Assembly (NCBI RefSeq): GCF_026262505.1
Contig: NC_067207.1
Coordinates: 12,678,082 to 12,742,081, forward strand
Direction of reading: 5' to 3'
Source of the DNA: Trichomonas vaginalis G3
Taxonomy: Eukaryota; Parabasalia; Trichomonadida; Trichomonadidae
DNA: 64,000 bases
Shown here: in pieces, positions 643 through 57,938 of the stretch
Numbering within the stretch: the stretch's first letter is position 1
Layout of the letters: each line of letters begins with the position of its first letter
Notes under the pieces: model-generated
Told to the model about the DNA's origin: nothing
The model's database searches: none
Seen by the model: the letters and a program-made list of their open reading frames with translations, nothing else
Program-made: the position numbers and the translations under genes

Positions 643-2270
643 TTAATTGTAATTTGCACCATGTGAAATAAGAATTTCGGCTGTTTCTCCACTATATTCA
701 CATGCGGCATAATAAAGAGCAGTTTTCCCTGCATTATCTTTTTCATTGATATTTGCACCATGTGAAATAAGAAGTTCTGCAATTTCTTTACGATTAAACC
801 ATGCGGCATAATGAAGAGCAGTATCTCCATCTTTATCTTTTTCATTGATATTTGCACCATGTGAAATAAGAAGTTCTGCAATTTCATATTTATTATGAAT
901 TGCTGCATAATGAAGAGCAGTATCTCCACATTTATCTTTTTTATTGATATCTGCACCATGTGAAATAAGAATTGTGGCTGTTTCTTTACTATTTTTCAAT
1001 GCTGTATAATGAAGAATGGACATTCCATTATTATCTTTCACATTAATTTTTGCCCTATGTGAAATAAGAAATTCAACTATTTCTTTACAATTCTTTTCTG
1101 CTGCTTTATGAAGAGCGGTTGCTCCATTAATATCTTTTTCATTGATTTTTGCACCATGTGAAACAAGGAATTCAACTATTTCTTTATAATTATTTTCCGC
1201 TGCAAGACGAAGAGCTGTCTCCCCATATTTAGTTTTTTCATTGATATTTGCACCTTTTGAAATAAGAAATTCGACTATTTCTTTACAATTATTTTCTGCT
1301 GCTTTATGAAGAGCTGTTCTTCCAAGATCATATTTTTCATTGATATTTGCACCAAGAGAAAGGATGTATTTGCAAAAGGATTGAATATTAAATATCGGGG
1401 AGTAAAATAAGCATTTTTAGCATCTTTAGTTTGATCCAAATAAACTAAAAATGCTTCAAGATTTTTGTATATTTCGCAATTGAATAAATCGATCTCTATA
1501 TTGTATTCATTCATCAAGAACGTAACAAAATCAATGTTGTGTGAGATAATTGCAAACATCATGCATGTTCCATTTGGTGTTTGATATTTCAAACATTCAC
1601 TCATGATCTCTGCATTTCCTCCTAAAAATGAAAATTCTAAACATTTTTGAGTTATTTCGGATTTAAATTTCGTTCTTAATAACTTGAAACAATCAACAGC
1701 TCCATGATAACAACATAATTCAAGTAATGAATATTCACAATTATATGGATATAAACTGTTTAAAATTTTTTGATCTTTATCAAATCCTTCTCTTTCCGTA
1801 AAAAAGATGAATCTTTCTAGGTCATTATACATAATTGCATTGTAAATGGTATTTTCTGTATGAATATCGATATTTGTTAAATCATTTTTGTAATCAATAT
1901 GGTTGTTTAATTTAATTCTATATTTTTTATAAAACAGGAAGTCAGGAAGAAAACCATTACCGTCGATCTGTGTTAAATGATAATCATCAGTAATGAATTT
2001 GGCAAGAGTCAAATATGAGTTTGTAAAGCGGTTATTGAATGTGATGATGCGAAAAATATCTTTGACAATACTTGTTGGGGAACAAACTCTTGAATCAATG
2101 AGTTCTGTTTTGATAATTTTGTAAATAGAGTTTAATTCTTCTTCATTTTCCGTTTTTAACTGATACAGCACATTATACGTATCGATATAGTATTTATAGA
2201 TACTTCGCAATTCAGTGTATTCTTTTGGGTGGATATATTTGGGCTTTAAACGCCTCCATAAATTTTTCAT
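643..2270 (-). pseudogene. DUF3447-type ankyrin-repeat protein, frameshifted
   Basis: The N-terminal part (ATG at 2270, about 290 residues) is the trichomonad DUF3447-like domain: HPKEYTELRS near the start, then LLELCCYHGAVDCFK and GGNAEIMSECLKYQ. The same landmarks occur in the intact paralogue at 43331-45643. At about 1395-1410 the frame changes. Minus-strand codons then continue in a second frame as eight 33-residue ankyrin repeats with exact 99-bp spacing (repeat landmarks at 1353, 1254, 1155, 1056, 957, 858, 759 and 660) and no stop until 643. The first frame dies at 1275. One single-nucleotide indel would explain the break, so this is either a recent pseudogene or a sequencing error. 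Ankyrin repeats normally mediate protein binding; the role of this large trichomonad family is not established. Confidence 0.85.
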
Positions 2271-2925
2271 TTTTTTATGAAAAAATTTCTAGAAATTTCA
2301 AAACAAAATTTTCGAAATTACAATTTCAATTTTTCTAGAAATATATATTAATTTTACTAAATATATGCATTATATTATATACTAATGAACTTTTTTTGCT
2401 TCAAAATGCTTTTCAATTCACTTTTTCGAAAGAAATACATCATATCTCAAGGCGGGAGTAAGATAATCCTTATCTATGGACAGAGCAGAATCAAAATCTC
2501 ACAAGCTGCTAAGAGAAATTTTAGATGAATATGCTATTTAGGCACTGGTGTACCTCCTTAAGACTTACAAACTACATTTAATATCATGATTAAGACAAAC
2601 TTCAGATTTCAATTTATGAATTATTTGCATTGTCAATATTCAAAAAAATATTTTCAATAATGAAGTAAAAAAGATCGAAATAAAACAAATTAATGTAATA
2701 GAAACTAATATAAATTTATAAAAACAACAAACAAGTAGAATGTTCAATAATACAAAGTAAATTTTGGAATAAATTTCGTCAAATATTCGGACTTTTGATT
2801 TCTAAATATATGCCATCATTCTATGATAGTAAGTGTTAAAAGTGTAATGATTCAAAACCGATTTAATAGTTGGCAAAATAATATAAATTTGTATTTTTCA
2901 GAAACAATGAAGTGGAGAATAAAGA
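2271..2925. other. Intergenic, nothing recognised
   Basis: This is AT-rich sequence between two minus-strand genes. I see no repeats with partners in the window and no convincing small ORF. Confidence 0.5.
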
Positions 2926-3219
2926 TCATTCGTATAAGTACTTCAGCATCACGTCTGCAGTAAGATTAATATTTTCATCTGCGTTTTTATGTTTTTGTAT
3001 TGGAATATTATAAATTGATTGATTTGGATCATATAATTTGTTGAAACCAGAATTCTGCATCTCTCGCTCATAAATATCGCCTAATATTGGAGGAAATTTC
3101 TCATGTAACGAATAATTTTTTTCTGGTGTATTTATAAACTGTATCATTCCTGGAGCATAATCATTAATGTTTGATATTTGATTATTTTGGCTGTGAGGGA
3201 AATTCAATTGTTCCCCCAT
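2926..3219 (-). CDS. Hypothetical 97-aa protein
   Basis: The frame opens with MGEQLNFPHS; the ATG at 3219 is preferred over an upstream in-frame TTG. The protein is hydrophilic, rich in Asn, Gln and Tyr, with no membrane segment or recognisable domain. Upstream on the coding strand is AAAAAGTGAC followed by TTTCATTTTT, so a TCATT initiator-like site lies about 35 nt before the ATG, which supports a real transcription unit. Function unknown. Confidence 0.5.
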   Translation of the reverse strand: MGEQLNFPHSQNNQISNINDYAPGMIQFINTPEKNYSLHEKFPPILGDIYEREMQNSGFNKLYDPNQSIYNIPIQKHKNADENINLTADVMLKYLYE

Positions 3220-20803: not shown

Positions 20804-20885
20804 GTTATCGATTTTGTAATTTAATCGTCGTCGTTATCGATTTTGTAATTTAATCGTTATCGTCTTTTTCTAAACGTGCATTTTT
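20804..20885. repeat. Left terminal inverted repeat of the 8.44-kb element
   Basis: It contains two copies of a roughly 25-bp core (TTATCGATTTTGTAATTTAA) separated by TCGTCGTCG, then CGTCTTTTTCTAAACGTGCA. It pairs with 29152-29233 on the opposite strand. Confidence 0.85.
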
Positions 20886-21289
20886 ACATTAAAAGCAATG
20901 CAACTCCAAAATTAATTGGTATTTAGACTTTAATTAGGTGCAGACAAACGAAATGCAGTCCAAATATTTTGGTGATATATGAATTACATAAATTTAAGGA
21001 AATTGAAATTATATCTTTTTAAATTTTTAGGAAAACAGATTTATAGAATTGTTTAATTCATCAAAATAATGCAGACTTAGGTCAAATTTTCCAAATTTAA
21101 TCATTTGCAAGACTTTCAAGCGACTTCAAAATGTCGAAATATAAGTCCAAAAATAAAATTACGATTACAGTCTATCCTCAATTATTATCACGCTAATTAT
21201 TGAGTGACCCATGCGTTCGTATGTATGTAATACCTTTTAAAAAGGAGATGAGAGAGATAAACGACATTTACAATTTAAATCTGATGTAT

Positions 21290-21500
21290 TTACTTGTTAC
21301 ATTTACAAATGTAAATGTTTCTCGTAATGTTTACATTTTGTAAGTATAACGAATAAAAATGACGCACTTTTTTTACAAAGTCAAATTATGCGATACAACT
21401 TTACTTGTTACATTTACAAATGTAAATGTTTCTCGTAATGTTTACATTTTGTAAGTATAACGAATAAAAATGACGCACTTTTTTTACAAAGTCAAATTAT
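21290..21500. repeat. Two direct repeats of about 100 bp, period 111 bp
   Basis: The block beginning TTTACTTGTTACATTTACAA at 21290 is repeated without visible change at 21401-21500 (period 111 bp). Each copy contains a small palindrome, ACATTTACAAATGT. It is subterminal in the 8.44-kb element. Identity between copies indicates recent duplication. Confidence 0.8.
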
Positions 21501-22466
21501 TGTTCGATTTTTGCAGCTTGTAAACGATTAATTGTATAAAGTAATTGATATTAGCACGACATAACTGAATAATTCTAATATTGAAATCAAAAGCCCTTAA
21601 AATATCATGATATTTTAATTTCATAACAAATCTAGGAGACTATTTGATGAAAACATATCCGATGTGGGTTTTTGTTGTATTATATAACTTGTTATTGACT
21701 TCTTAGCTTTCCAAATTTTTTTCGATAATGAGAAAACGAATGAAAAATCAACATTTGGTCCATTTAAAATTTGATTTGTTTACATTTTTTTTACTTTTTG
21801 AATTTCAATTTATATTTTCCTCAAGAAATACTTTAGATTTTAAGAAACTAAATCATATAATCTACTAAGAAAATATATTAAATCCTATAATACTCAAAGT
21901 TTTGTGATAAATCCGATCTTTTTTATTTTACTTTTATTATGTTTTTGCAAACTTAAGGTCCTCACTAGGTAAAACATAATACTCTTTGAAGTTAAGTATT
22001 TTCACAAAGAGAGGACCAACAATATCAAAAGATTGAATAAAGATTTGTATTATTTTATTTATTTTTAAGAACATGTTTAAGAACCCTCATTATCTCCACG
22101 AATATTGCATATTTTTCTATTCTAAGACCACCAAAATTACGTTTTAATATAGAAAATAACATATTTATGTGATGCTAAAGTCGAAGTCCTTAAAAAATTA
22201 GTGTTAAACATCCATTTATTACAAAATTGAAGAAATATGTAAAATATAACACATAATTTAGTTATTTGACTCAATTATTAGTTATGCAATATCAGTTGTG
22301 TTTATATCTGCGTTATATCACGAGATGCATTGAATTGTCATAATTAGATCACCGTAAATCTTATCAATTTTTGATACACTTCCGGTGAAAAATTTAGCCT
22401 TGACAATAGGATGAAATATATTGTAAAAAAATAAATTTTAGATTTTGAAGTTTATCATTTCGAATA

Positions 22467-23651
22467 ATGAAATATAAACAATACAAATTTTCTGTCGTTT
22501 CGAGATTCATAAATGATCGGAATCTTCCAGCTCCGACTGAAATAGAACTTTCGGAAGCTAATTTTCAAGACGAATCTTCTTTATTAAGATTTATTTTGGA
22601 TATCCCTAAGGATTTAAGCTTTTCCATTGACTCATATTCAATGAATCTTTTGATACATTTCATTATCGAGCAATCTACACAAAATGAAACAATATTAAAA
22701 TTCACAATTCAAAATATCACTTCTTCGAATATCTTTCAAATAGATTTGATACTACTGGAAAATTTATTCGAATATTTATCGCATTATATTAACCAGATTT
22801 TTTTCATTTTTTCATTAAAATTAATTCATTTTAAAGCTTTAGATAACATACAATACCTTTATTTATCAACATTTTCCGATCAATATGATGAGATATTACG
22901 TTTCATAAGCAGCAGTGACAATTCTCTCTATATCATCGATACATTTATTGCTTTGATTAAAAACAATATTCTTGACGTTGAATTCTTCCAAAACGCAGTT
23001 TTACTCAAGAAAGAAATTTTTTCTAGTATTATTGAGTACGAAAATCAATATTCAACTTATGCAATTGCAAATTTCTTTACAAAATTATTAAAATATTACC
23101 CAGGATATGCAACTGCTCTTCCATGTTCGGATATACTAATATCAAATTATTTCAACTTTTTTAATGACGTGAATTCAATTATAAATAACGAAGATTTTGT
23201 TTATCTTCTCAAATTTATAGTTTTATTTTATAAAGCAGTCGATATAACATCTGAGATGGCTTTAGAATTCATAAAAACACTTGAAATTCTGCGAAGTCTT
23301 TCTCCTCACTATTCATTTACAGAGTATGTAGTTCAGGGGTATTATTGTGTACTTCCTCTTATACCCATGCAAATTTCATCTACCGATTTTTTAAATTCAC
23401 ATGAATTTTTAATTAATTATGCAATTGAGAATTCAAATCTTCACAAATATTTGAAATTATATTCCAGATGTTTCCGCAGATTTGATAGCGATGAAATATT
23501 CAAAAATGTTTTTCATATCTTAAACCTTGTAGAAGTTACAACAGAATATTTATCAGAAAATCAGGATCTTTCTGAGAAACAGATCTTTATTTGCAACGAT
23601 ATCCTAACGAGGGTTAATTTAATTTTTATTTTTTATTTCAAGTTTGAGTAA
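22467..23651 (+). CDS. Unknown helical protein carried inside the MULE
   Basis: This 394-residue protein starts at ATG 22467, preceded by an initiator-like TCATTTCG. It opens with a short conserved-looking segment (MKYKQYKFSVVSRFINDR) and continues with Leu/Ile/Phe-rich amphipathic helices of the kind found in armadillo/HEAT-like solenoids. No specific family is recognised. The last eleven codons run antisense through the 3' end of the HP1-like gene, so its natural C-terminus may have been cut and replaced. It could be a captured host gene fragment carried as a passenger, or a component of the element. Confidence 0.6.
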   Translation: MKYKQYKFSVVSRFINDRNLPAPTEIELSEANFQDESSLLRFILDIPKDLSFSIDSYSMNLLIHFIIEQSTQNETILKFTIQNITSSNIFQIDLILLENLFEYLSHYINQIFFIFSLKLIHFKALDNIQYLYLSTFSDQYDEILRFISSSDNSLYIIDTFIALIKNNILDVEFFQNAVLLKKEIFSSIIEYENQYSTYAIANFFTKLLKYYPGYATALPCSDILISNYFNFFNDVNSIINNEDFVYLLKFIVLFYKAVDITSEMALEFIKTLEILRSLSPHYSFTEYVVQGYYCVLPLIPMQISSTDFLNSHEFLINYAIENSNLHKYLKLYSRCFRRFDSDEIFKNVFHILNLVEVTTEYLSENQDLSEKQIFICNDILTRVNLIFIFYFKFE

Positions 23652-23975
23652 ACTTTCAAGATAATCTATATAAGCCTTTTGATGTTCTTCATCTAGATTC
23701 TTGTTTAATATGTGATGAATTTGATTTTTTTTTGAAAATTCAAGATAAAATTCTTTTTTATCTTGATCAACAACATGAACAATTCGAGTACAGCGTAACA
23801 TTTCATCAATATTTTCTGTTTTCTTCGTTTCTAGATATTTTTCAAATATTTCTTGCGGAATCTCATTTTGATATACCCATTTATTTTTTTCCGGATGCTG
23901 ATCTTTGTACTTAACGAAATATTGCTTGACTATTCGCTCAGAAACAACATATTCGATCTCTTTTCTCTTTCTCAT
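23619..23975 (-). CDS. Compact HP1-like protein (chromodomain plus chromoshadow-like domain)
   Basis: This 118-residue protein starts at ATG 23975, with an initiator-like TCACA about 14 nt upstream on the coding strand. Residues 8-50 align by eye with chromodomains: EYVVSERI, then YFVKYKDQHPEKNKWVYQNE and IFEKYLE, matching the pattern EYxVExI..YLVKWKG..NTWEP..F. Of the methyl-lysine cage, Tyr9 is present and Tyr23 replaces Trp; the third aromatic is not evident. Residues 60-114 resemble a chromoshadow domain: TRIVHVVDQDKKEFYLEF, ending AYIDYLESLLKLE like VIAFYEERLTW. There is almost no hinge. HP1 proteins bind H3K9-methyl nucleosomes and dimerise through the shadow domain. Here the gene sits inside a transposon, divergent from the transposase. 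It overlaps the end of the 394-aa gene by 33 nt. Confidence 0.65.
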   Translation of the reverse strand: MRKRKEIEYVVSERIVKQYFVKYKDQHPEKNKWVYQNEIPQEIFEKYLETKKTENIDEMLRCTRIVHVVDQDKKEFYLEFSKKNQIHHILNKNLDEEHQKAYIDYLESLLKLEIKNKN

Positions 23976-24199
23976 TGAATATTTGTGACACTTTTGAATT
24001 CAATCAAATCAAAAATATTTGAAATTGCTAGAATTTTTTTCTTTCTCATGAATATTTGAAATGACTCAAAAGGAAAACTCGTTCGATTCAATTCAATTTT
24101 GAATCAGAATTTTTTAAGGACCAATAAATCAAATTATGTTAAGAAAATCTTTTTTTAACTCAGAGTATCAAAAGTACGTTAAACCTTCAATTTTATCTC
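23976..24199. promoter_or_regulatory. Divergent promoter region inside the MULE
   Basis: This 224-bp gap separates the HP1-like gene (minus) from the transposase (plus). It contains a TCACA initiator for the minus gene near 23988; the plus gene is preceded by TTATCTC directly before its ATG. The two genes could share control, by position only. Confidence 0.4.
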
Positions 24200-25090
24200 A
24201 TGTCGGAAAGCGAACCGACAATAGTGGAAGAGAATCAAACTATATCAGTATCCATCCAAGCTATTGTTGATGAAGAAAAAGGAGATGGAGCTGATATGCT
24301 GGATTTAATTCAAAATGAATTGAATTCCCGTAAAAAATTGAAATATAGAATGGAAATACCTGAAAATTCCCCAATTCCAATTCTCAAGGAAAGATATAGC
24401 AAATTAAAATTTACAGATCCTACAGAAGCTGCTATATTTATTGCAAAAGATTCATATAATTCTTTTTATCCATTAAATTTTGAGCAAGGAAAAAAGTTTC
24501 GTTGTCCTAACTGCCAATTTTGCATGGAGCTTGTAAAGACTCATGAAAATGGTCAACTTTTCTTCATTCCAGTAATTAAACACGAGCATAGAGCAAAGCA
24601 ATGCAAGCCGAGTAACAATATACCAAAAATTCTTAAGTTGCAAGCAGGAAAAAAAGTCTATGAATTAGCAAATTCTGATAATGTTCCTCAATGCAAAGAA
24701 ATTTTTGCAAAAGAATTGAATATTCCCAATGCAACTTATACGATGTTCCATAATATAGTAAATAAACTTAAAGGAACCACAAAAGGGGATAGAATTCAAT
24801 CTTACAATTATTTCTCAACAATTTTTTCAATCATAAACAAAATCGAACAAGGATTCTGCGAAATGATTTTAGTTAAAGAAGTTAACAATGAAATTGAATT
24901 GCATACATTTAAGAAAGGTGATGAATTACCTGAAAATTCAAAAGACTTTCAAATTTATTCATTTATTGTAATTCCTCCAATAACTCATTTTTACATGCAA
25001 ACACAAGCTTTTTGCGGAATAATTCAAATTGATGGAACGTTTTTATTTTGTATTAAAAAAGGAAACTTACTCATTATTGGGAGTATATAA
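24200..25090 (+). pseudogene. MULE transposase, N-terminal part (split gene)
   Basis: This 296-residue frame starts at ATG 24200. Residues about 95-140 hold a FLYWCH/FAR1-like zinc-binding region (FRCPNCQFCMEL ... KHEHRAKQC). Near the end lies IIQIDGTFLF, the first catalytic Asp of the DDE transposase domain. The frame stops where the nested element begins (TAAGAATTTCCG). The C-terminal part resumes at 27045 after the insertion. Compared with the related transposase at 57939-60674, roughly 20-25 residues between the two parts are missing, so the insertion was accompanied by a deletion. Confidence 0.75.
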
Positions 25091-25192
25091 GAATTTCCGA
25101 AAAGTGACACCCAAAAAGTGACACTTTCAATAGGGAGTAACACTTAAAAAGTGACAATTTAAAATTCACAATAAATAAAAATAATAAATTTT

Positions 25193-25762
25193 TTAGTCTA
25201 TTAAATTATTCTTTTCTTTGAAATCCTCTAAAAATTCTTCGAAATGTTCTAAAATATAATCTGGAGAATTATAACAAAATTCATTAATTTCTAACATATA
25301 CGTATCTAACAATTCATTTGGAATTTCAAACGATCTTAAATATGTAATTGAATTTTGTATCTTCTCATTTATTTGAGAAAGTTTTTCTTCAGCATTTTCC
25401 AATAAAAATCTTAATGGATTCAAATTGGCTTCTTGATTCTGAACAAAATTTAATACTTGGTATAAACGTGATTGAACTTCTCTTTTCAATTTTGTTTTAT
25501 AATCTGTCAATCGAGGCTCGCGAATTCTAATTGAAGGAATAAAACCTGTTTGAAGTAAATCGTTTTTAATACGATAAAAGTAATTGGGTGCAACTTCTTC
25601 TAAAAGATTTTTGACAAAAACATCAATTCTTTGATTTTTAACGCAGCCAAAATCGTGATATTTTATCTTTTTAAATAAAGATTCAGAAACGTTATTCACA
25701 ACGGTTAATTCATTTGGTCTGGCAGCGGCTATCCACATCATAGCCAACAATTCCTTATACAA
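25193..25762 (-). pseudogene. MULE transposase C-terminal remnant
   Basis: About 185 residues align by eye with the C-terminal part of the transposase at 57939-58934. ELTVVNNVSESLFKKIKY corresponds to LALTNNISESINKKIKY, which holds the catalytic Glu of the DDE triad. IPNELLDTYMLEINEFCYNS corresponds to IPMEIKLSILTQITEFGCNT. The N-terminal two thirds, with both catalytic Asp residues, are absent; the hairpin array begins exactly where the upstream coding region should be (MYKELLAMM is array sequence). No separate function is expected. Confidence 0.7.
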
Positions 25763-26745
25763 AATTCAAAAACTTGGGTGCAATCAGAACTGATTGCACC
25801 CAAGTTTTTGAACTTTCTTGAGGGAATTAAAGGGTGAGAGATTTATAGTCTATCTATATATCTCCCGCCCTCTAATTCCCTCCCTGACAGCGGGAAACTT
25901 TGTCTGAATGTTAAACTATTCAGACAAAGTTTCCCACTGTTTGCGAAGGAATTGTTGGCTATGATGTACTGATTCATGATCAGTACATCATAGCCAACAA
26001 TTCCTTATATAAAGTTCAAAAACTTGGGTGCAATCAGTTCTGATTGCACCCAAGTTTTTGAACTTTCTTGAGGGAATGGAAGAGTAAGAGGTATACATTA
26101 TGAATATATACCTCTTACCCTTCCATTCCCTCTCTGACAGCGGGAAACTTTGTCTGAATGTTAAACTATTCAGACAAAGTTTCCGCTGTCAGCGAAAGAA
26201 TTTTTCCATCTGGTGCATAGAGTGTGAATCTATGCACCAAATGGAGCAAGTCCCTCGCGAAATTGCCCAAACTTGCGTCGCATTTCAAAGATTGCGACCC
26301 AAATTTTGGCGATTTCTAGTAGAGATGGAGTATTTTGAGTCACTGACCTATATGCAGTGGCTCAAAGGGCTCCATCTCTACTTTGAAGCAAGGAAACTTT
26401 CCTCGAAATTTTGATAATTTGAAGAAAGTTTTCAAGCAATTAACAAAGGATTACTCGCTATGAGGTAAAAATTCTAGATTTTCACCTCATAGCGAGAGCT
26501 TCCCTTTCATTGCTTGAAAACTTTCCCCAGCTTCAAAATTGGGGAAAGGGCTGTAAAGTCGACTCCGATACCAGCAGGTACCAGAGTATTTAAAAGAGAA
26601 GCCCTCGTACGAGTTTCTATGAAGACCTTCTCATTCAAGAAGATCTTAATAGAAAATCGTACGAGGGCATTGGAAACTCGCGTCTGGTACATGTTGGTAC
26701 CAGAGTGTTTGAGATTTGAAGACTCTGGTACTAACATGTACCAGA
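25740..26745. repeat. Hairpin array 1: consecutive hairpins with 62.5-bp centre spacing
   Basis: Thirteen hairpins follow one another with centres at about 25788, 25851, 25913, 25976, 26038, 26101, 26163, 26225, 26287, 26350, 26413, 26475 and 26534. Spacing is 62-63 bp throughout, with about 60 for the last step. Two further hairpins centre at about 26634 and 26714. The best stems are 28 bp perfect with a 5-nt loop (25946-25973 / 25979-26006) and 27 bp with a 2-nt loop (26011-26037 / 26040-26066). The first three hairpins recur 250 bp later (four spacings). Most other arms are unrelated in sequence. Later hairpins have 4-5 mismatches per stem, so the right end looks older. Frames through it are chance. 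Confidence 0.85.
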
Positions 26746-27044
26746 ATTTATGATGAATTTAAGATGGACCATTATAAAATGGTAGCGGTTTGTTTCAAAA
26801 AAATTTAGATGAGATTTGCATAGATATAGATTATATGATTTATACATATGAAAAATAATATATAAAAATATAATTTGGAGATAATTATGTAAATAATATT
26901 TTAAATATTTGAATTTGAGGTATAATTTTATAGTAAAATATATTATAAAGAGTATTTATATAAATATTGTAAAATAATATAAGTAATAAAAATTGAGACC
27001 CCCTCCCTGTTTTTGATGTTTTGTCACTTTTTCGGTAATTCTTA

Positions 27045-28124
27045 TTGTTTCTAACAATTAAGGATATGCTCACTAAATTGAAATCTTTTATTCCACCAAG
27101 CAGATTCAAGAATATTTATTCCGATCAAGGTCCGGCAATTATAGCTGCTGTTAGAGAATCAGGCTTTTCTTGCGATCATAAATTTTGCTTACGTCATTTT
27201 GCAACAAAAAGGGAATACATCAATGTCTATTCCGAAATTGTTGAAGTCGCTTACGCAGACCATCCTCAAAAACGAATTGACTTGATTAAAAAGTTAGAAA
27301 CTCGTTTACAAGAGGAATATCCAAACCGCGAAAATAATCAGGATCTCTTTAAGTACTTAGATAGTATTAACCCATTTGAAGGATTCGCTGACTACACCGC
27401 TGGCATACTCACAACATCTCTTATTGAATCCCTTAATGCCGAAATTAAAGATAAATGGGATACATATGAACCCGCCGAACTAATTATCCGTCTCATTGAA
27501 CATGAATTCAATCTTGTTAAAAATGTTTTAACAGGTGATTTTAAATCAGATAATATTATCAAAAATCTAAATGAAACTTTGAAACATTCAGATATGTTTA
27601 GCTCGGTATTATATGATCCAATTCAAGAATTATATTATGCAACTTTTGGTCGCTATACATATTGCGTAAAAATTATGTCAGATTCACAATATTCATGCAC
27701 ATGTAAGCACATCGAATTATACGGATTACCTTGTATTCATGTAATCGCCGTATTGAATCACTTTTCGAACAAAAATCTTCTTAAAAATTTGAATGATGCA
27801 GTTCATGCTCGCTTCAAATGTTCAGAGTTTATGACTCCTGTGGAAGATTTAATGAAATTTTATGTTGACCAAGCATCTTTAAAAATTCCCGGAATAAATT
27901 TCAACCTGGGAGAGATTGAAAAATTAAGGGGAAAAGGACTAGGATTAAAGCATTTTACGAAAAGTGATGCTGTGTTGTTAGTTATTTATTTACTTTTTTT
28001 AATATTTTTTAAAAAAATAAAAGAAAATTCAAATAATTTTGTATCTCCCATGATATATCGACCCACGAGTACTAATGTGGCTATAATTAGAGATTGCAAC
28101 TCTATTATGATCATAGTCCGGTGA
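27045..28124 (+). pseudogene. MULE transposase, C-terminal part (split gene)
   Basis: This is the continuation of the transposase begun at 24200. FKNIYSDQGPAIIAAV carries the second catalytic Asp. HKFCLRHF is the CxxH motif typical of MULE transposases. LTTSLIESLNAEIK provides the Glu. Around residues 225-250 of this frame is a SWIM zinc finger (SCTCKHIELYGLPCIHV, CxC...CxH), which many MULE transposases carry at the C-terminus. The frame has no ATG start of its own near the beginning; it is the downstream half of a gene broken by the element at 25088-27045. Confidence 0.75.
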
Positions 28125-29151
28125 TATACAATAAGATTCAAATTTTGAAAGAATTAAATTAATAAAATCCCGGTGAAAAAAATAAAAACAGCTTCTAAAA
28201 GTATAGTTATCTTAAAATACGAACTTTAACACAAGTTTTTTGATCCAATAGAAAATTGAATTCTTTGAATAAATAAAATATTTTATGTATTAACATATTA
28301 AATTTCCTAATTATTTTTTCTTCTTGGGAAAATTTTTGAATTCGAATAGAAAATTCAATAAATTGAAATTGGGTTGAAAGAATTCTCCATATTAACTTGT
28401 CATATATTTCAGATCATATAAATTAAGTTAATTAAATTTTTTAAAAACCTTAATAGGATAAAAAAAAGAATTTACACTCTCTCACTTTGAAAACGTAGAA
28501 AATGCCAATCTATTGGTATACATTTTAGTTTTGTTAAGTTTACAAAACGATTACTCTAGATTTTAAAGATTTATCAAGAATTTAGAGAATATCCTTCTCA
28601 AAACAACTTCAATAGCGAAGGATTAGTATTGAATCGGATTTGTAACATAATTATAGTACATTACAATACAATTTCTCCGACTTTTAAATATTTTTGAAAT
28701 ATTTACAAAATATGCTCTTTCTATCATCGATACTTTAATACAGAGCAAATTTAGTAAATGTCATCACGTTATTTTTTCATAAATCGTTTTCGAACTTTTG
28801 AAATATTTATTTTAAACCAGTTTTCTACATTTAATATGTGAATTATATCAAAAGTAGATGGGCGATACTTGTAAATCTATTTAAACTATTAGTTTGCTAT
28901 TATTGAAGAACTTTATAATTTTTTTTTCTTATGTATGGAATTAAAGATAATTTTGCCGATTCCAACTGGTTTTTCTATATGAGTTAAATATGCCAAGTGA
29001 AATTGGACTTGCCAATATTGTAAATTGAAGTATGGACTATATATCGATTTTCATTGATTGATGAATAACTCGGAGTAATGTAATTGTTGATAATGAAAAA
29101 TAGTTTTCAATTGCTGGTAAGGGCCAATGTATGTTCAATAGCTCCGAAAGC
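28125..29151. other. Right non-coding part of the MULE
   Basis: This is AT-rich sequence between the transposase end and the right terminal repeat. I recognise nothing else in it. Confidence 0.4.
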
Positions 29152-29233
29152 AAAAAATGCACGTTTAGAAAAAGACGATAACGATTAAATTACAAAATCG
29201 ATAACGACGACGATTAAATTACAAAATCAATAA
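29152..29233. repeat. Right terminal inverted repeat of the 8.44-kb element
   Basis: It is the reverse complement of 20804-20885 with about one substitution (CAATAA in place of CGATAA at the outer edge). AAATTTGAGG follows at 29240-29249 as the target duplication. Confidence 0.85.
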
Positions 29234-29452
29234 TGACCCAAATTTGAGGCTATAAATAATATTGACAAACCGTCTGAAAACATTCAATATGACACTTTTA
29301 TGATTTTTATCAACTCTCCACATCGGCTCTTTTAAAATATTTTGAAATTTTAATAAGTGTATGAATCTACGCATCTTTGATCGAAGTTTTTTGAACCATT
29401 CTGAATTTTTTGAATTAAACTTCTTTCAGATTTCGTTTGAACCTCTGTGAAT

Positions 29453-37512: not shown

Positions 37513-37585
37513 TGCAAAAAAGAGTCGATACGAAAAGCAGACTTTTTTTTGTACCCCCTCTCAATTTTTTTTCCAGTTTTCGTAC
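37513..37585. repeat. Left inner inverted repeat
   Basis: It is about 70 bp with a CGAAAAGCAGACTTTTTTTT stretch and CCAGTTTTCGTAC, and is the reverse complement of 40437-40504 with a few mismatches and one indel. Confidence 0.75.
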
Positions 37586-38188
37586 TTTTTTACAGAGCAT
37601 AGTATTTGATGTCCAATGTTTGCCTATGATCAGAACTCATCTTTCTCCTGTTCATATTTCAATCTCTGGTCTAGACATATATCACATCAAATATCATATT
37701 TGATTATTCACAATTGTTTAAAAGATTTTACACGCACAAGCATAATGTTTTGTGCAAAGTACAATTTCAATGTGTTAATCTATAAAACTTGATTTTTATT
37801 GCATATGCAATTAGGCATCTTTTTTAAAATAGAGTTTTGAAGATAAGCATATATGAGAATGATATGTACTTGTTATTGTAAGAACAATTAATGTTATAAA
37901 TTTATTCAATTATTATAGATAATGAAATAAATATTTTATTATATAAAAAAGAGTGTTTATTCATTATAAATAGAGTTCTGTTAAGCAAATATTTTATTTG
38001 TAACGGGTAAACTATAAATTTGCATGTTTGAATTATTGAGATCAAATATTCGCATGCAATCAATAAATTTGCTGCAAAATTATAATCTCAAGCATGTACT
38101 ATTTTGAAACAATAAAGCATCAGAGAGCCTTTTCACTATGATCTTTCAGAAAATGAAAGAACATAGAAAAACTGCCCTTTATAAAGAT

Positions 38189-39180
38189 GCTATGACCTCA
38201 ACAAGGGTCAGAGCCTGTATCTGTATGTCCTTCAGGGCCGAGATAAGAGGATATCGTCAATGATGTTGGCGATCTCCCTCAAACTCGGCCCTGAGGATTA
38301 GTATTGCAGGCTCTGACACATGTTGAGGTCAGAAATTCGGGTTTGCTGTTTTCCAGGGTCGGATTCCTCTCCTGTCGCCCTAGATCAGGACGACATTTGG
38401 GAAATCCGGCCCTGAGGACTGTAAGTGAGGCCCTGAACCTTTGCTGAGGCCAGAGCTTAGTATTTGTTGCTTCTCAGAGCCGAGTTCCGCTGAGAAGTGT
38501 CCGTGATCTGAACAATCTCAGGGAACTAGGCTCTGAGGACTGTAAGCGAAGCCCTGGTCTCTGCTGATGCCAGGGCCTGTATTTTGAAATCCTTCAGGAC
38601 CGATATGAGAGGAGATCGCCAATAATGTGGATGATCTCCCTCAAAATCGGCCCTGAGGATTGATCTTGCAGGCTCTGACCTTTACTGTGGCCAGAGCTTC
38701 GTTTGGTAAGTATTCCAGGGCCAGATTCCTCGCCTGCCGCCCGGGGTCAGAGCGGCATTTGGGAAAGCCGGCCCTGGGGACTGTAAGCAAAGCTCTGGCC
38801 TTTTCTGAGGCCAGAATCTGTGTATTTCTTTCTTTCAGGCCCGAATTTGAGGGAGATCGTCAATGATGTTGACTATCTCTCTCAAATTCGGGCCTGAGGA
38901 TTGTATTTGCAGGATCTGGCCACTGCTAAGGCCAGAGCTTCGTATGGGCACTCTCTTGGGACTGAATTCCTCTCCGGCCGCCCCGAATCAGGGCGGTCTT
39001 TGAGGAAACCAGCCCCAAGGATTGTTTGCGAAGCTCTGGCATTTCCTAAGACCAGAGCTTGTGAATTTCATTCAGAGCCAAGTTCCTCTCGGATCGAACC
39101 TAATGAGGAAGACCGTTGAGGAACTTGGCTCTGAGGAGATCAATTGTTTGCTCTGGCCTCGATGAAGGCAAGAGTTTTCA
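38189..39180. repeat. Hairpin array 2: eight 120-121 bp units, GC-rich
   Basis: Short hairpins of the form TCTGGCC-N8-GGCCAGA recur at 38189, 38310, 38430, 38551, 38672, 38792, 38913, 39033 and about 39150, a 120-121 bp period (117 for the last). Between each pair sits a larger hairpin such as TCAGGCCCGAATTTGAG / CTCAAATTCGGGCCTGA (38835-38897). Alternate centres are therefore about 60 bp apart. Large hairpins fall into three types in the order A-B-C-A-B-A-B-C. Arms differ between types but stay complementary within a unit. GC content is near half, far above the surroundings. Confidence 0.85.
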
Positions 39181-39539
39181 AGGGAATGTTTTGATGGGAT
39201 GAGTCTATTATCAGTAAGCTCGTCCCATCAAAACATTCATTTAAAAATTGAATGAATAATTATCGTATCTATTCAAAAATTAAAAATTTAAAGATGAATA
39301 AAATTATAATACATATGAAAGAGAAATAAATTACATTGAAATTGAATAAAAAATTCCCAAAAAAAATTCAAAAAACTGAAAATAAAAAGAAAAAATATAA
39401 AATTTGATAAGAAAAAACGATTTGAGTTAAAAAACGTTTCTACAAAACATGAATATTTATGATTTAGAATAAATTGTGAATAAAATTTACTAGTTTAAAG
39501 AAGAATGAGAAAATTAAATTATATTGAAAAGAAGATACT

Positions 39540-40016
39540 TTAGAAAGGAGTTTACGATTGCAATATTATATGGTATAACATTGTACTCGTAACCTCCTTT
39601 CGATAATCTAATTTCTAAAGCAACATTGAGATATGAAAAAAATTAACTTTCTTCGAAAGGGGTTTATAATTGCAATATAATATGACATTATATCGCAAAT
39701 GTAAACTCCTTTCGGTAATCAAATGTCTAATGTCACATTGCGGAACAAAAGTGAGAGATTCTCCCGATCTGAGTACGTAATTGCAGGATGCCATTGCAAG
39801 ACCCTGCAAATATGTACTCAGATCGGAAACTTTGTTCCCAATGTCACATTGCGGAACAAAAGTGAGAGATTCTCCCGATCTGAGTACGTAATTGCAGGAT
39901 GCCATTGCAAGACCCTGCAAATATGTACTCAGATCGGAAACTTTGTTCCCAATGTCACATTGCGGAACAAAAATGAGAGATTCTCCCGATCTGAGTACGT
40001 AATTGCAAGAACATAG
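39540..40016. repeat. Hairpin array 3: tandem 111-bp units
   Basis: A 111-bp unit starting TGTCACATTGCGGAAC is present at 39731, 39842 and (partial) 39953, nearly identical. Each holds a large hairpin (CCGATCTGAGTAC ... GTACTCAGATCGG, 39764-39826) and a small one across the unit joint (GTTCCCAATG / CATTGCGGAAC, 39834-39857). Two diverged units with GAAAGGAGTTTAC-type arms precede it (about 39544-39720). Because 111 is a multiple of three, frames are open on both strands; these are not treated as genes. Confidence 0.8.
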
Positions 40017-40436
40017 AGATATAGTATGCAACAAATGCTTTTATCAACTTATTTACACTCATATAATTATATTCATCCTTCAATCTTGATTATATTTCAT
40101 ATTTCTGAGCAAACATAGAGCCTCAACTCATAATTATAAAGACTACCAATTGTAACCATATAAAAACACAATTTTTTAAAAGTTATTATTATTCAACTTC
40201 CTGTGATACGGTATTTTGATTACATTTCTTAAATTTTTGTAAAACAAGCATAGATCTATCATGAGCAATCATATGATAGTAAATATATTGCTTCCATGCT
40301 AAATTCAATTGAGATTATCTTGACATTAAACTTAGAATCCTCTCAAATTCAAGGAGATAATCACAATACAGCTATATTTTAATGCTGCAGTATAGCGAAA
40401 GCTCTCAGATTATTATACACTACTAATACCATATGA

Positions 40437-40504
40437 GTACGAAAACTGGAAAAAAAATTGAGAGGGTGTACGAAAAAAAAGTCTGCTTTTCATATAGTTT
40501 CTGC
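40437..40504. repeat. Right inner inverted repeat
   Basis: Partner of 37513-37585. It begins GTACGAAAACTGG and is followed within 20 bp by the right copy of the outer 23-bp repeat. Confidence 0.75.
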
Positions 40505-43330: not shown

Positions 43331-45643
43331 ATGTCCGAACAAGACATTCATCCAACTAAATATAGCGAACTGCGAAGTATCTTTGAACACTACATTGATT
43401 CATATATTGCTTTATATCAGCTGAAAACGGACAAAGAAGAAGAATTAAACGAAATTTACAAAATGATCAAAACAGAATTGATTGATTCAAAGATATACCC
43501 ACCAAAAAAGATTGTGGAAGATGTTTTAGATATCATTCTGTATAATAATCGCTATACAAAGTCATATTTATCACTTGCAAAACTCATATCTGATGATTAT
43601 CATGTAGAAGAGGTCAAGTATGTTGAACTTATTTCAAACTTCCTGTTTTATAAAGAATATGGAAATAAATTAGACAAATCCGGTGATTTTTTTGAATTTA
43701 ACTTTGAAAATCTGGATATTCATAAAGAATATACAATTTACAGAGCAATTATGTATAATGACTTAGAAATGTTCATCGCATTCACGGAAGTAGAAGGATT
43801 TGATAAAGATCAAATACTTGAAAGTGGTTTATATCCATATTCTGAAGTAGGATATTCATTACTTGAATTATGTTGTTACCACGGAGCAGTTGATTGTTTC
43901 AAGTTTTTAAGAACGAAATTTCAATCAGAAATAACTAAAACATGTTTACAACTCTCATTTTTAGGAGGAAATGCAGAGATTATGAGTGAATGTTTGAAAT
44001 ATCAAGAACCAGATGAACAATGCATGGAATATGCAATTATTTCACACAACATTGATTTTGTTACGTTCTTGATGAATGAATACGATATAGAGATCATTTT
44101 AGATCATTGTACACAGTACAATAATCTTGAATCATTTTTAGTTTATTTCGATCAAACTAATGATGTTAATAATTGCTTTATTAGATCGATAATCTTTAAT
44201 ATTCCATCTCTTTGCGAATATTTCCTATCAAATGGTGCAGATATCAATCAAAAAGATTATGCTGGAGAAACCGCTCTTCATAATGCAGCATATTATAATA
44301 GCAATGAAATAGCTGAAGTTCTTATTTCACATGGTATAAATATCAATGAAAAAACTCAATATGGAAAAACCGCACTTCATATTGCAGCAAGTGAAAATAG
44401 TAAAGAAACAGCTGAAGTTCTTATTTCACATGGTATAAATATCAATGAAAAAGATAATGATGGAGAAACTGCTCTTCGTATTGCAGCAAGTGAAAATAAT
44501 AAAGAAACAGCTGAAGCTATTTTATCACTAGGCATAAATATCAATGAAAAAGATGAAAGAGGAAAAACCACTCTTCATATTGCAGCAGAAAATAGTAATG
44601 GTAAAGAAACAGCCGAACTTCTTATTTCACATGGTATAAACATCAATGAAAAAGATAATGTTGGGAAAACCGCTCTTCATTATGCAGCATATTATAATCG
44701 TAAAGAAACAGCTGAAGTTCTTATTTCACATGGTATAAATATCAATGAAAAAACTAATGATGGAGAAACTGCTCTTCATATTGCAACATCTTATAATAAT
44801 AGAGAAACAGCCGAAATTCTTATTTCACATGGTATAAATATCAATGAAAAAGATAATGTTGGGAAAACCGCTCTTCATTATGCAACATATTATAATAATA
44901 GAGAAACAGTCGAACTTCTTATTTCACATGGTATAAACATCAATGAAAAAGATAATGTTGGGAAAACCGCTCTTCATTATGCAGCATATTATAATCGTAA
45001 AGAAACAGCCGAAATTCTTATTTCACATGGTATAAACATCAATGAAAAAGATAATGATGGAAAAACCGCTCTTCATTATGCAACATATTATAATAATAGA
45101 GAAACAGCCGAAATTCTTATTTCACATGGTATAAACATCAATGAAAAAGATAATGTTGGGAAAACCGCTCTTCATTATGCAGCAACTGGAAATAGTAAAG
45201 AAACAGCTGAAGTTCTTATTTCACATGGTATAAATATCAATGAAAAAACTAATGATGGAGAAACTGCTCTTCATATTGCAACATCTTATAATAATAGAGA
45301 AACAGCCGAAATTCTTATTTCACATGGTATAAATATCAATGAAAAAACTAACAATGGGAAAACCGCTCTTCATTGTGCAGCATATTATAATCGTAAAGAA
45401 ACAGCCGAACTTCTTATTTCATATGGTATAAGCATCAATGAAAAAGATAATGATGGAAAAACCGCTCTTCATATTGCAGCAGATCATAATGGAAAAGAAA
45501 TAGCCGAACTTCTTATTTCATATGGTATAAGCATCAATGAAAAAGATAATGATGGAAAAACCGCTCTTCATATTGCAGCAGATCAAAATAGTAAAGAAAC
45601 AGCCGAACTTCTTATTTCACATGGTATAAATATCAATGAATAA
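43331..45643 (+). CDS. DUF3447-type ankyrin-repeat protein
   Basis: This 770-residue protein starts at ATG 43331. Residues 1 to about 290 are the DUF3447-like domain (HPTKYSELRSIFEHYIDSY, LLELCCYHGAVDCFKFL, GGNAEIMSECLKYQ, DFVTFLMNEYDI). About 15 ankyrin repeats of 33 residues follow, with consensus GKTALHYAA..N.KETAELLISHGININEKDN. The DNA repeats are 99 bp and several copies are nearly identical, so unequal recombination is likely. The stop at 45641 falls inside a repeat: the next bases still read as a decayed repeat (TCTCTTCATATT), so the protein was once longer. Its paralogue at 643-2270 is frameshifted. Probably a protein-interaction scaffold; no established function. Confidence 0.9.
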   Translation: MSEQDIHPTKYSELRSIFEHYIDSYIALYQLKTDKEEELNEIYKMIKTELIDSKIYPPKKIVEDVLDIILYNNRYTKSYLSLAKLISDDYHVEEVKYVELISNFLFYKEYGNKLDKSGDFFEFNFENLDIHKEYTIYRAIMYNDLEMFIAFTEVEGFDKDQILESGLYPYSEVGYSLLELCCYHGAVDCFKFLRTKFQSEITKTCLQLSFLGGNAEIMSECLKYQEPDEQCMEYAIISHNIDFVTFLMNEYDIEIILDHCTQYNNLESFLVYFDQTNDVNNCFIRSIIFNIPSLCEYFLSNGADINQKDYAGETALHNAAYYNSNEIAEVLISHGININEKTQYGKTALHIAASENSKETAEVLISHGININEKDNDGETALRIAASENNKETAEAILSLGININEKDERGKTTLHIAAENSNGKETAELLISHGININEKDNVGKTALHYAAYYNRKETAEVLISHGININEKTNDGETALHIATSYNNRETAEILISHGININEKDNVGKTALHYATYYNNRETVELLISHGININEKDNVGKTALHYAAYYNRKETAEILISHGININEKDNDGKTALHYATYYNNRETAEILISHGININEKDNVGKTALHYAATGNSKETAEVLISHGININEKTNDGETALHIATSYNNRETAEILISHGININEKTNNGKTALHCAAYYNRKETAELLISYGISINEKDNDGKTALHIAADHNGKEIAELLISYGISINEKDNDGKTALHIAADQNSKETAELLISHGININE

Positions 45644-46398
45644 GAAAATTATGAAAACCTCTCTTCATATTATATTACTTTATAATAGTAAATATATAGT
45701 GAACAGGATATTGTCATCAAAATAGTAAAGAAAAATTATGGGTTATGAAAAAATGAATATTGGAATAGTAATCTCTGTTAAATTGCAGATATTGTTGTTA
45801 TAAATTTTTTAATAATCCCAATTTTGGCCTTCCTCTCAATTTTTTCTATCAACTTCACTTTGACACGTAAAGATTATGTGTTAAAAATTTATTTACTGTA
45901 TTAGATGTTAAAATATGCATAGATATAGATCATAGATTATGTGTGCAAAATTATAAAAAATTCTATCGAATATTCATAATTTTTTTCACTCATTTGGCCT
46001 AATGAAAAAAAGGAGAAAAAATAAAAAAAAAGCAATGAGAAAAATGGTCATCGATGAAGACATCACTTTGAGGTATTTTTAAATACTGTATCTTATAGGG
46101 AGGAAATATGTAATGGGCATTTGGACTGAGACCTAGTATTCGCCAAGATCTGCGACACCAAATTTGAAAATTTTTAACAACAGCTTCAAATTCTAAAACG
46201 ATATTATGGGAGACTTGTCAAATTGTTATTAGTAAACTCCTCAATTTGTTGGATTCTAGAGATATTGAATCGAAATAAAAATAAATTTGTCTAGAATATG
46301 TCTCTTCTCAGAGTTTATTAGGGATATTTTTGTACAAATATAAAATATAACTTTATTGTAAAAATAAAAATAATAAAATACAAGAAATTATAAGCCAC
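45644..46398. other. Decayed ankyrin tail plus intergenic spacer
   Basis: The first 90 bp or so continue the ankyrin repeat beyond the stop codon in recognisable but mutated form. The rest is AT-rich spacer with no feature seen. Confidence 0.5.
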
Positions 46399-57207: not shown

Positions 57208-57390
57208 AATTTTAGCTAAAAGTGACAGGGAAAAAAAAACGTTTAGTATTAAAAAAAAGACCGATGAGAGCTTCGTTCGAAATATAGAGGAAACTGAGAA
57301 TGCGCAACCATTCTCAGGGAATATTGGATGCTATTCCCGTTCCCTCTGTATGGAAAATTGAGGTTTTCAAAGGGAGTTAAAATAATATCA

Positions 57391-57863
57391 AATTTATACT
57401 AATTTACTTCAAAATACAAAAGTATTTGACAGCTAAAATTAGTTACTTTAGCAAGCCTATCAATACCCTTTTACGATTATTGCTACTTTTTCGAAATAAA
57501 AGTAAAAACAAATTTATACTAATTTACTTCAAAATACAAAAGTATTTGACAGCTAAAATTAGTTACTTTAGCAAGCCTATCAATACCCTTTTACGATTAT
57601 TGCTACTTTTTCGAAATAAAAGTAAAAACAAATTTATACTAATTTACTTCAAAATACAAAAGTATTTGACAGCTAAAATTAGTTACTTTAGCAAGCCTAT
57701 CAATACCCTTTTACGATTATTGCTACTTTTTCGAAATAAAAGTAAAAACAAATTTATACTAATTTACTTCAAAATACAAAAGTATTTGACAGCTAAAATT
57801 AGTTACTTTAGCAAGCCTATCAATACCCTTTTACGATTATTGCTACTTTTTCGAAATAAAATA
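57391..57863. repeat. Four identical 120-bp tandem repeats
   Basis: The unit beginning AATTTATACTAATTTACTTC starts at 57391, 57511, 57631 and 57751 with no difference seen between copies; the fourth is cut near 57863. Each unit contains short palindromes (AAATACAAAAGTATTT, GCTAAA-N9-TTTAGC, TACTTTT-N7-AAAAGTA). The period divides by three, giving an open plus-strand frame of 169 codons that is rejected as a gene. Identity implies very recent expansion. Confidence 0.9.
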
Positions 57864-57938
57864 AATTTATTATCAAAAACCTTTTTTTTCTTAGTAAAAA
57901 TAAAATGTTATTTTATATCAAGTTTTTATTCATAAATT

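Follow-up and report, generated by a model that had tools for sequence, protein, structure and literature searches.

An evenly pitched palindrome array in a Mutator-like transposon of Trichomonas vaginalis, with arms probably re-paired by template switching

A row of evenly spaced hairpins in Trichomonas vaginalis G3 DNA is read here, with a probability of about two thirds (0.68), as a tandem array of palindromes borne by a Mutator-like (MULE) DNA transposon, the pitch of which would be inherited and the arms of which would be re-paired by template switching, with any function lying in the DNA and not in RNA. The array is a non-coding segment of about 1 kb of the transposon, and a shortened copy of the element is present in the window, as we call the whole stretch of 64,000 nucleotides that was analysed (contig NC_067207.1, positions 12,678,082 to 12,742,081 of the forward strand; positions below count from its first letter). 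A previous reading made from the letters of the window (the sequence-only reading) had listed 13 hairpins, and a palindrome scan recovered all of them, each centre lying within 0.5 bp of the position given there. As that reading had stated, the pitch is nearly constant, with 62.5 bp for ten of the 12 centre-to-centre steps and 61.5 and 59.5 bp for the remaining two, and a perfect stem of 28 out of 28 pairs with a 5-nt loop is found at 25946-26006. The last of the 13 is a weak hairpin of nine pairs (26521..26548, centre 26534.5), which occupies position A of a fourth round and has no significant homology to A, and it is followed 100 and then 79.5 bp on by two strong hairpins that are out of phase (26601..26745, centres 26634.5 and 26714). 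Of 17 palindromes above the scan cut-off in the 64-kb window, 13 lie inside the array. When the window was cut into 120-nt pieces in steps of 60, the 30 that folded best all fell in this array, termed family 1, or in the family 2 element described below. The chance that the array reflects coincidence, low complexity or an assembly artefact is practically nil, and such an origin can be regarded as already refuted: the two halves of the array fold with z scores of -32.5 and -18.0, none of 100 dinucleotide shuffles of either half folded equally well, the array is found nearly whole at 39 further scored places and further families share a similar layout. Two other candidates were rejected, namely a coding repeat, as no ORF runs across the array and its 250-bp unit is not divisible by three, and a known RNA family, as no Rfam match to the array reached the gathering score.

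Constant spacing had been attributed to unrelated palindromes, most arms sharing no sequence and only the first three recurring, and this view did not survive a pairwise comparison of 64-nt segments. Among the 15 hairpins compared, high-scoring pairs are almost confined to a lag of four or eight, with z scores at lag four of 35 for hairpins 1 and 5, 13 for 2 and 6, and 31 for 3 and 7, and the homology reaches partly into a third round (10.8 for 5-9, 9.5 for 1-9, 5.8 for 4-12 and 3.7 for 7-11); pairs 4-6 and 6-12 scored 4.7 and 4.8. Since the arms recur at a lag of four, one step of the pitch corresponds to a fourth of a tandem unit 250 bp long. Unit 1 (25735..25984) comprises hairpins A1, B2, C3 and D4, centred in the palindrome scan at 25788.5, 25851, 25913.5 and 25976, unit 2 (25985..26234) comprises A5, B6, C7 and D8 (26038.5, 26101, 26163.5 and 26225), and the diverged unit 3 (26235..26496) comprises A9, B10, C11 and D12 (26287.5, 26350, 26412.5 and 26475). 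Sequence comparison thus identifies the array, for most of its hairpins, as a tandem repeat of a four-palindrome unit present about three times, of which the third round has diverged so far that not every hairpin can be traced: homology of unit 3 was detected for A9, C11 and D12 and not for B10. Furthermore, D8 resembles D4 weakly (z 2.3 for pair 4-8), and the 64-nt comparison detected no homology for pairs 6-10, 8-12 and 9-13. That the spacing might be just the length of an ancestral unit, an outcome considered in the sequence-only reading, therefore holds in that the pitch is a quarter of the unit and fails for B10, D8 and A13, which do not align. The even pitch would accordingly be a tandem-unit length passed on by inheritance, while units may be expanded or trimmed by unequal exchange, a process suggested by the unit clusters found elsewhere in the genome.

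The host of the array is a non-autonomous MULE copy of 1971 bp (25081..27051), the short form of family 1, whose boundaries are common to copies with different flanks and are also marked by two empty sites (L049 and L050). Its terminal inverted repeats lie at 25081..25110 on the plus strand (GAGTATATAAGAATT..CCGAAAA..GTGACA) and at 27022..27051 on the minus strand; in family 1 as a whole they are about 30 bp long and imperfect, and both end motifs are present in 13 copies. A search of the genome (180.9 Mb in 86 contigs) yielded at least 40 nearly whole array copies, the window included, with 96-100% identity (40 of 802 candidates scored). Matches start at 25080 or 25081 in 12 of 20 compared loci and end at 27051-27054 in 15 of the 20. 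Beside the array, a 182-aa ORF (25193..25741, minus strand) represents the C-terminal remnant of the element's MULE transposase, the gene of which is intact in a 3396-bp form. Two loci, L021 and L022, carry 1421 internal bases more than the window copy and have ORFs of 556 and 559 aa, respectively; L021 has lost its left end, and its ORF runs out in other sequence, while L022 is the full 3396-bp form with an intact 559-aa MULE transposase (PF10551, 32.7 bits with a cut-off of 27.6). A protein search returned two proteins, 99% and 36% identical. The window copy, which has its ends in common with the autonomous copy and contains no intact transposase, is a deletion derivative, with the junction of the 1421-bp deletion at 25735..25736 and its right side inside a further hairpin of the long form. 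At 1971 bp it is longer than a typical MITE. The array was found at all four extracted places with an intact transposase (L022, which equals L045, and L046, L047 and L048), and in the long form it occupies approximately 2040-3090 of 3396, with some 250 bp between its beginning and the start codon of the downstream transposase gene. A foldback layout, with tandem repeats in long inverted ends on both sides, is absent, the array being located only upstream of the transposase gene. By eye, the deletion at 25735 ends in a hairpin stem, and a short inverted match (GGCTAT/ATAGCC) has been left where its two sides meet.

Family 1 also fits a satellite in that its tandem units expand in clusters, as seen on contig C4 with many 250-bp units: at L043 and L044 (C4:14.53-14.56 Mb) they are amplified into a satellite-like cluster in both orientations, and the 5.3 kb of L043 contain 67 palindromes scoring 12 or more. 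On contig C2 (1185-1553 kb), 16 family 1 copies form three groups with steps of mostly about 5.1 and 6.36 kb, and one of 2.76 kb, which suggests a larger tandem repeat carrying the family 1 element.

Compared by eye with the empty sites L049 and L050, the window copy displaced 65 bp of target without a duplication, and a target duplication is absent from all 12 short family 1 copies examined. MULEs are expected to have target duplications of about 8-11 bp; of two full-length copies with both ends seen, one has a 9-bp duplication (CATGCCAAT) and the other, L022, has none. In one set of eight copies, the right end was not found within the extracted piece for seven. The lack of a duplication together with the replacement of 65 bp of target is unusual for a cut-and-paste element. 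The insertion is hosted by an outer element, which extends over 20804..29237 as judged from inverted 29-bp tandem repeats at both ends, and it interrupts a transposase-like gene on the plus strand (24200..28124), leaving ORFs at 24200-25090 and 27066-28124, the second of which includes a SWIM zinc finger. A 19-base core of the outer-element ends is identical, with no mismatch, to the end sequence of a T. vaginalis "unknown repeat" (PMC2725143). A 545-base piece of the interrupted gene is found at 99-100% identity in at least 40 places (40 of 65 candidates scored).

Other hairpin arrays, which the sequence-only reading had proposed to seek and measure, do exist: two further families and two further clusters were found. 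Family 2 is represented in the window by a 2980-bp element (37522..40501) with no ATG ORF of 120 aa in it; its ends (GAGTCGATACG..ATAGTTTC) and a 9-bp target duplication (TGCAAAAAA) were read by eye. Such 9-bp duplications were seen by eye in four of four family 2 copies with both ends; L031 and L034 are without one end. The array of this element (38232..39247) has a 241-bp internal repeat and large hairpins at 38263, 38384, 38625, 38746, 38866, 38987, 39103 and 39211, mostly 120-121 bp apart, with a bulged hairpin near 38505 seen by folding only and smaller hairpins between the large ones. Further hairpins with a period of 111-112 bp follow at 39543..40007 (centres 39572, 39684, 39795 and 39906). 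In the array of large hairpins, the last five centre distances (121, 120, 121, 116 and 108) do not differ between the copies (11 of 11). To the left of these, a distance of 112 occurs in L035 and L038, and one centre of L036 is missing. Large-hairpin arms of families 1 and 2 gave no pair above z 4 among 135, and a link through other hairpins was rejected, the hits above z 4 (2 of 120 pairs for the small hairpins, 1 of 60 for those of the 111-bp period) being taken as chance.

Family 3, identified at L020, consists of 250-bp units with four hairpins, h1 to h4, spaced 62 to 63.5 bp apart, of which h1 (17 pairs with a 21-nt loop) was missed by one palindrome scan of this locus. At least 48 matches, some of them overlapping, cover at least 1198 of the 1201 query bases (40 of 532 candidates scored), and matches overlap in one long array along C4:16688857-16691805. 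The family 3 unit aligns end to end with that of family 1 (z 15, 137 of 231 bases or 59% identical, four internal gap events). By hairpin, h1 matches B (z 13.6 and 10.2) and h4 matches A (5.7 to 8.3), while h3 is weak against D4 (3.6) and strong against B2 (10.4); h2 is similar to A (5.3 to 7.6) and not to C. Because of this cross-matching an older 125-bp unit is suspected, with the register of C and D uncertain, and the 250-bp unit is perhaps a doubled 125-bp unit of two hairpins, as far as the alignments suggest. With families 1-3 masked, a cluster scan of L009-L028 and the window gave two further clusters, at L009:8278-8874 and L020:215-512, with steps of about 119-122.5 bp, neither of which resembles families 1-3 by BLAST at 1e-6. 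Over 325 kb of window and loci, with some overlap, palindromes scoring at least 15 number 54.8 per 10 kb in family 1 and 2 sequence and 2.3 elsewhere, the third family being counted under the latter.

The stems have remained paired while the units diverged. When eight diverged family 2 copies (L035-L042) were compared with the window, 1475 pairs comprised 1117 that were the same, 177 with a one-sided change, 138 that were compensated and 43 with a double change without pairing, compared with 29.6 compensated and 546 one-sided changes expected under independence; these cells are not independent, since the copies are related and hairpin types have moved between positions, so that the events are fewer than the cells. 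Similarly, three homologous hairpins of families 1 and 3 show 4, 9 and 7 compensated changes, with 1.2, 2.3 and 1.9 expected (in total 20 versus 5.4). The comparison of C7 with h2 (10 compensated versus 2.4) was excluded from this count because the two have no detectable homology (z 1.0) and unrelated palindromes would look alike. Among 31 recent family 1 copies or parts of copies there are 32 one-sided changes, one double change that does not pair and no compensated change, and template switching is therefore slow relative to point mutation.

How such pairing could be renewed is indicated by 19 orientation-normalised family 1 units. In hairpin C of L044 unit 225 the left arm is CCCTCTCTGACAG, the loop GTTAAACT and the right arm GTTTGCGAAGG; in L044 unit 720 and ten L043 units the left arm is CTTCGCAAACAG and the loop AGTTTAAC, with the right arm unchanged. 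The altered left arm and loop are the reverse complement of the loop and right arm, and both forms coexist. The ten altered L043 units are distributed as five in each half of an inverted duplication, and the hairpin C units of L043 and L044 probably go back to one amplified event, so that few independent events are claimed. Because L043 is itself an inverted duplication, its whole-cluster loop-inversion count and G.T/A.C counts were set aside. In L044 unit 475, hairpin C has a mixed form that a simple switch event does not explain. Loops are also inverted elsewhere: in the same orientation, the loop of hairpin A is TT in 14 units, AA in four and shortened in one, and the window's family 2 hairpin 38866 has the loop TGATG, which reads CATCA in L032. 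Arm homogenisation together with loop inversion is described as a mark of template switching in the accounts of PMC8794818 and PMC8604942. In such a process, the replicating strand would fold back so that one arm serves as template for its partner and for the loop, and arms would thereby stay complementary while units diverge, a general role that may be extrapolated from the scar in a few paralogues. We infer from these comparisons that the pairing is renewed at least partly by DNA template switching, presumably also beyond the hairpins named here. Hairpin-primed copying, which the sequence-only reading had offered as an explanation of the pitch, is thus partly supported by the arm-templated copying and loop inversion in paralogues, but such copying restores pairing within an existing hairpin and is not what determines the pitch.

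According to a different explanation, the main force that maintains pairing and pitch is selection on a DNA structure required by the transposon (cruciforms or a regularly folded single strand), with switching doing no more than supplying the variants, and we consider this unlikely. The constancy of the last five family 2 distances is tighter than drift alone suggests, although the distances do vary farther left. The 250-bp unit length is common to families 1 and 3 despite 59% identity, and retention of the array at all four extracted places with an intact transposase points in the same direction. In five near family 2 copies (L030-L034), gap events number 2 per 193 substitutions in the array versus 21 per 203 in the flanks (p 0.0001). 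However, the flanks are homopolymer-rich, which inflates their indels, and with eight diverged copies added (13 copies) the array has 6.0 gaps per 100 substitutions versus 5.7 in the left flank. Depletion of changes in stems among recent copies is weak and inconsistent as well: in recent family 1 copies, 18 of 654 stem bases are variable (2.8%) versus 20 of 357 other array bases (5.6%; p 0.036), a difference that could reflect selection, whereas a count including gap columns runs in the opposite direction (51 of 730 versus 12 of 281). Variability of the transposase remnant (3.1%) is close to that of the stem bases.

It is less probable still that the array functions as a transcript, be it a non-coding RNA with a defined fold or a precursor of transposon-silencing small RNAs. 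In favour of such a role, very strong RNA folding is predicted for both strands. Against it, G.T mismatches do not consistently outnumber A.C mismatches: the one-sided mismatches of family 2 amount to 51 G.T and 43 A.C (p 0.47), and the G.T/A.C counts in stems are 10/13 for the window, 9/15 for the long form and 22/15 for L044, the last of which speaks against the DNA reading. Selection on one RNA strand is therefore unsupported, and with no Rfam match at the gathering score the proposal of selection for a regularly folded RNA finds no support. In favour of a small-RNA source, 34-nt small RNAs of T. vaginalis have been linked to reduced gene and transposon expression, with a candidate piRNA region described on chromosome IV at 14-24 Mb (PMC7845603), and 22 of 84 transposase matches lie on contig C4 at 14-24 Mb, the identity of C4 with chromosome IV not being established. 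By contrast, and with regard to the dicing-type precursors suggested in the sequence-only reading, miRNAs accounted for 0.0046% of the dataset in the survey reported in PMC7844918. Returning to the transposon-borne array inherited as DNA, a cis-acting role is plausible, and the array, if active, would aid transposition or amplification of its own element as DNA. A more tentative extension, and somewhat doubtful in our judgement, is that transposons throughout the T. vaginalis genome carry DNA hairpin arrays of one class, comprising several families with a two-hairpin unit of about 110-125 bp, in which pairing is inherited through switching as the sequence drifts and a cruciform-prone structure serves the transposon in cis (e.g. 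by fork stalling or transposase loading).

The kind of transposon is known, and the evenly pitched palindromic tandem array with template-switch re-pairing would be a new variation on it. By description alone, family 1 resembles TvMULE1-4, single-gene elements whose non-coding regions measure several hundred bp and whose copies are nearly identical; TvMULE3, with a 557-aa transposase and 30-bp ends, is similar in size to the 559 aa of family 1, while the duplications of TvMULE2-4 are 10-14 bp and that of family 1 is 9 bp (PMC2725143). The words hairpin, palindrom and tandem are absent from the main text of that paper. Muta1 (PMC5225508) and Tm1 (PMC3169594), Mutator/Foldback elements with subterminal tandem repeats, are likewise MULEs with tandem repeats in non-coding DNA and duplications of 8-9 bp, but their repeats are 9-15 bp long and lie within the inverted ends, whereas the units of family 1 are palindromic, 250 bp long and confined to one side of the gene. 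Hairpins attributed to template switching share with the present ones arm homogenisation, multi-base compensatory changes and inversion of the loop or spacer, but those reported in PMC8794818 and PMC8604942 belong to RNA genes and yeast coding DNA, whereas here they form arrays in a transposon. A literature search by titles and opening lines of abstracts, with subscription papers and Repbase outside its scope, brought up no account of such arrays in transposons of T. vaginalis. When stems stay matched over long periods, this is usually read as a mark of RNA selection. Here, compensatory changes are abundant although the transposon DNA is apparently non-coding and shows no consistent RNA strand bias, and pre- and post-switch forms of a hairpin are found side by side. 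If this reading is true, the arrays would offer a natural system in which covariation driven by mutation can be told apart from covariation driven by selection, and they would yield false hairpin calls in miRNA prediction for T. vaginalis.

Further tandem repeats of the window, with units of 120 bp (57378-57865) and 111 bp (21289-21500), lie beside or inside other transposase-bearing elements and contain weak hairpins only. Finally, the window holds 99-bp coding tandem repeats at 652-1361 and 44241-45692, which, judged by their sequence pattern, encode putative ankyrin-like repeats.
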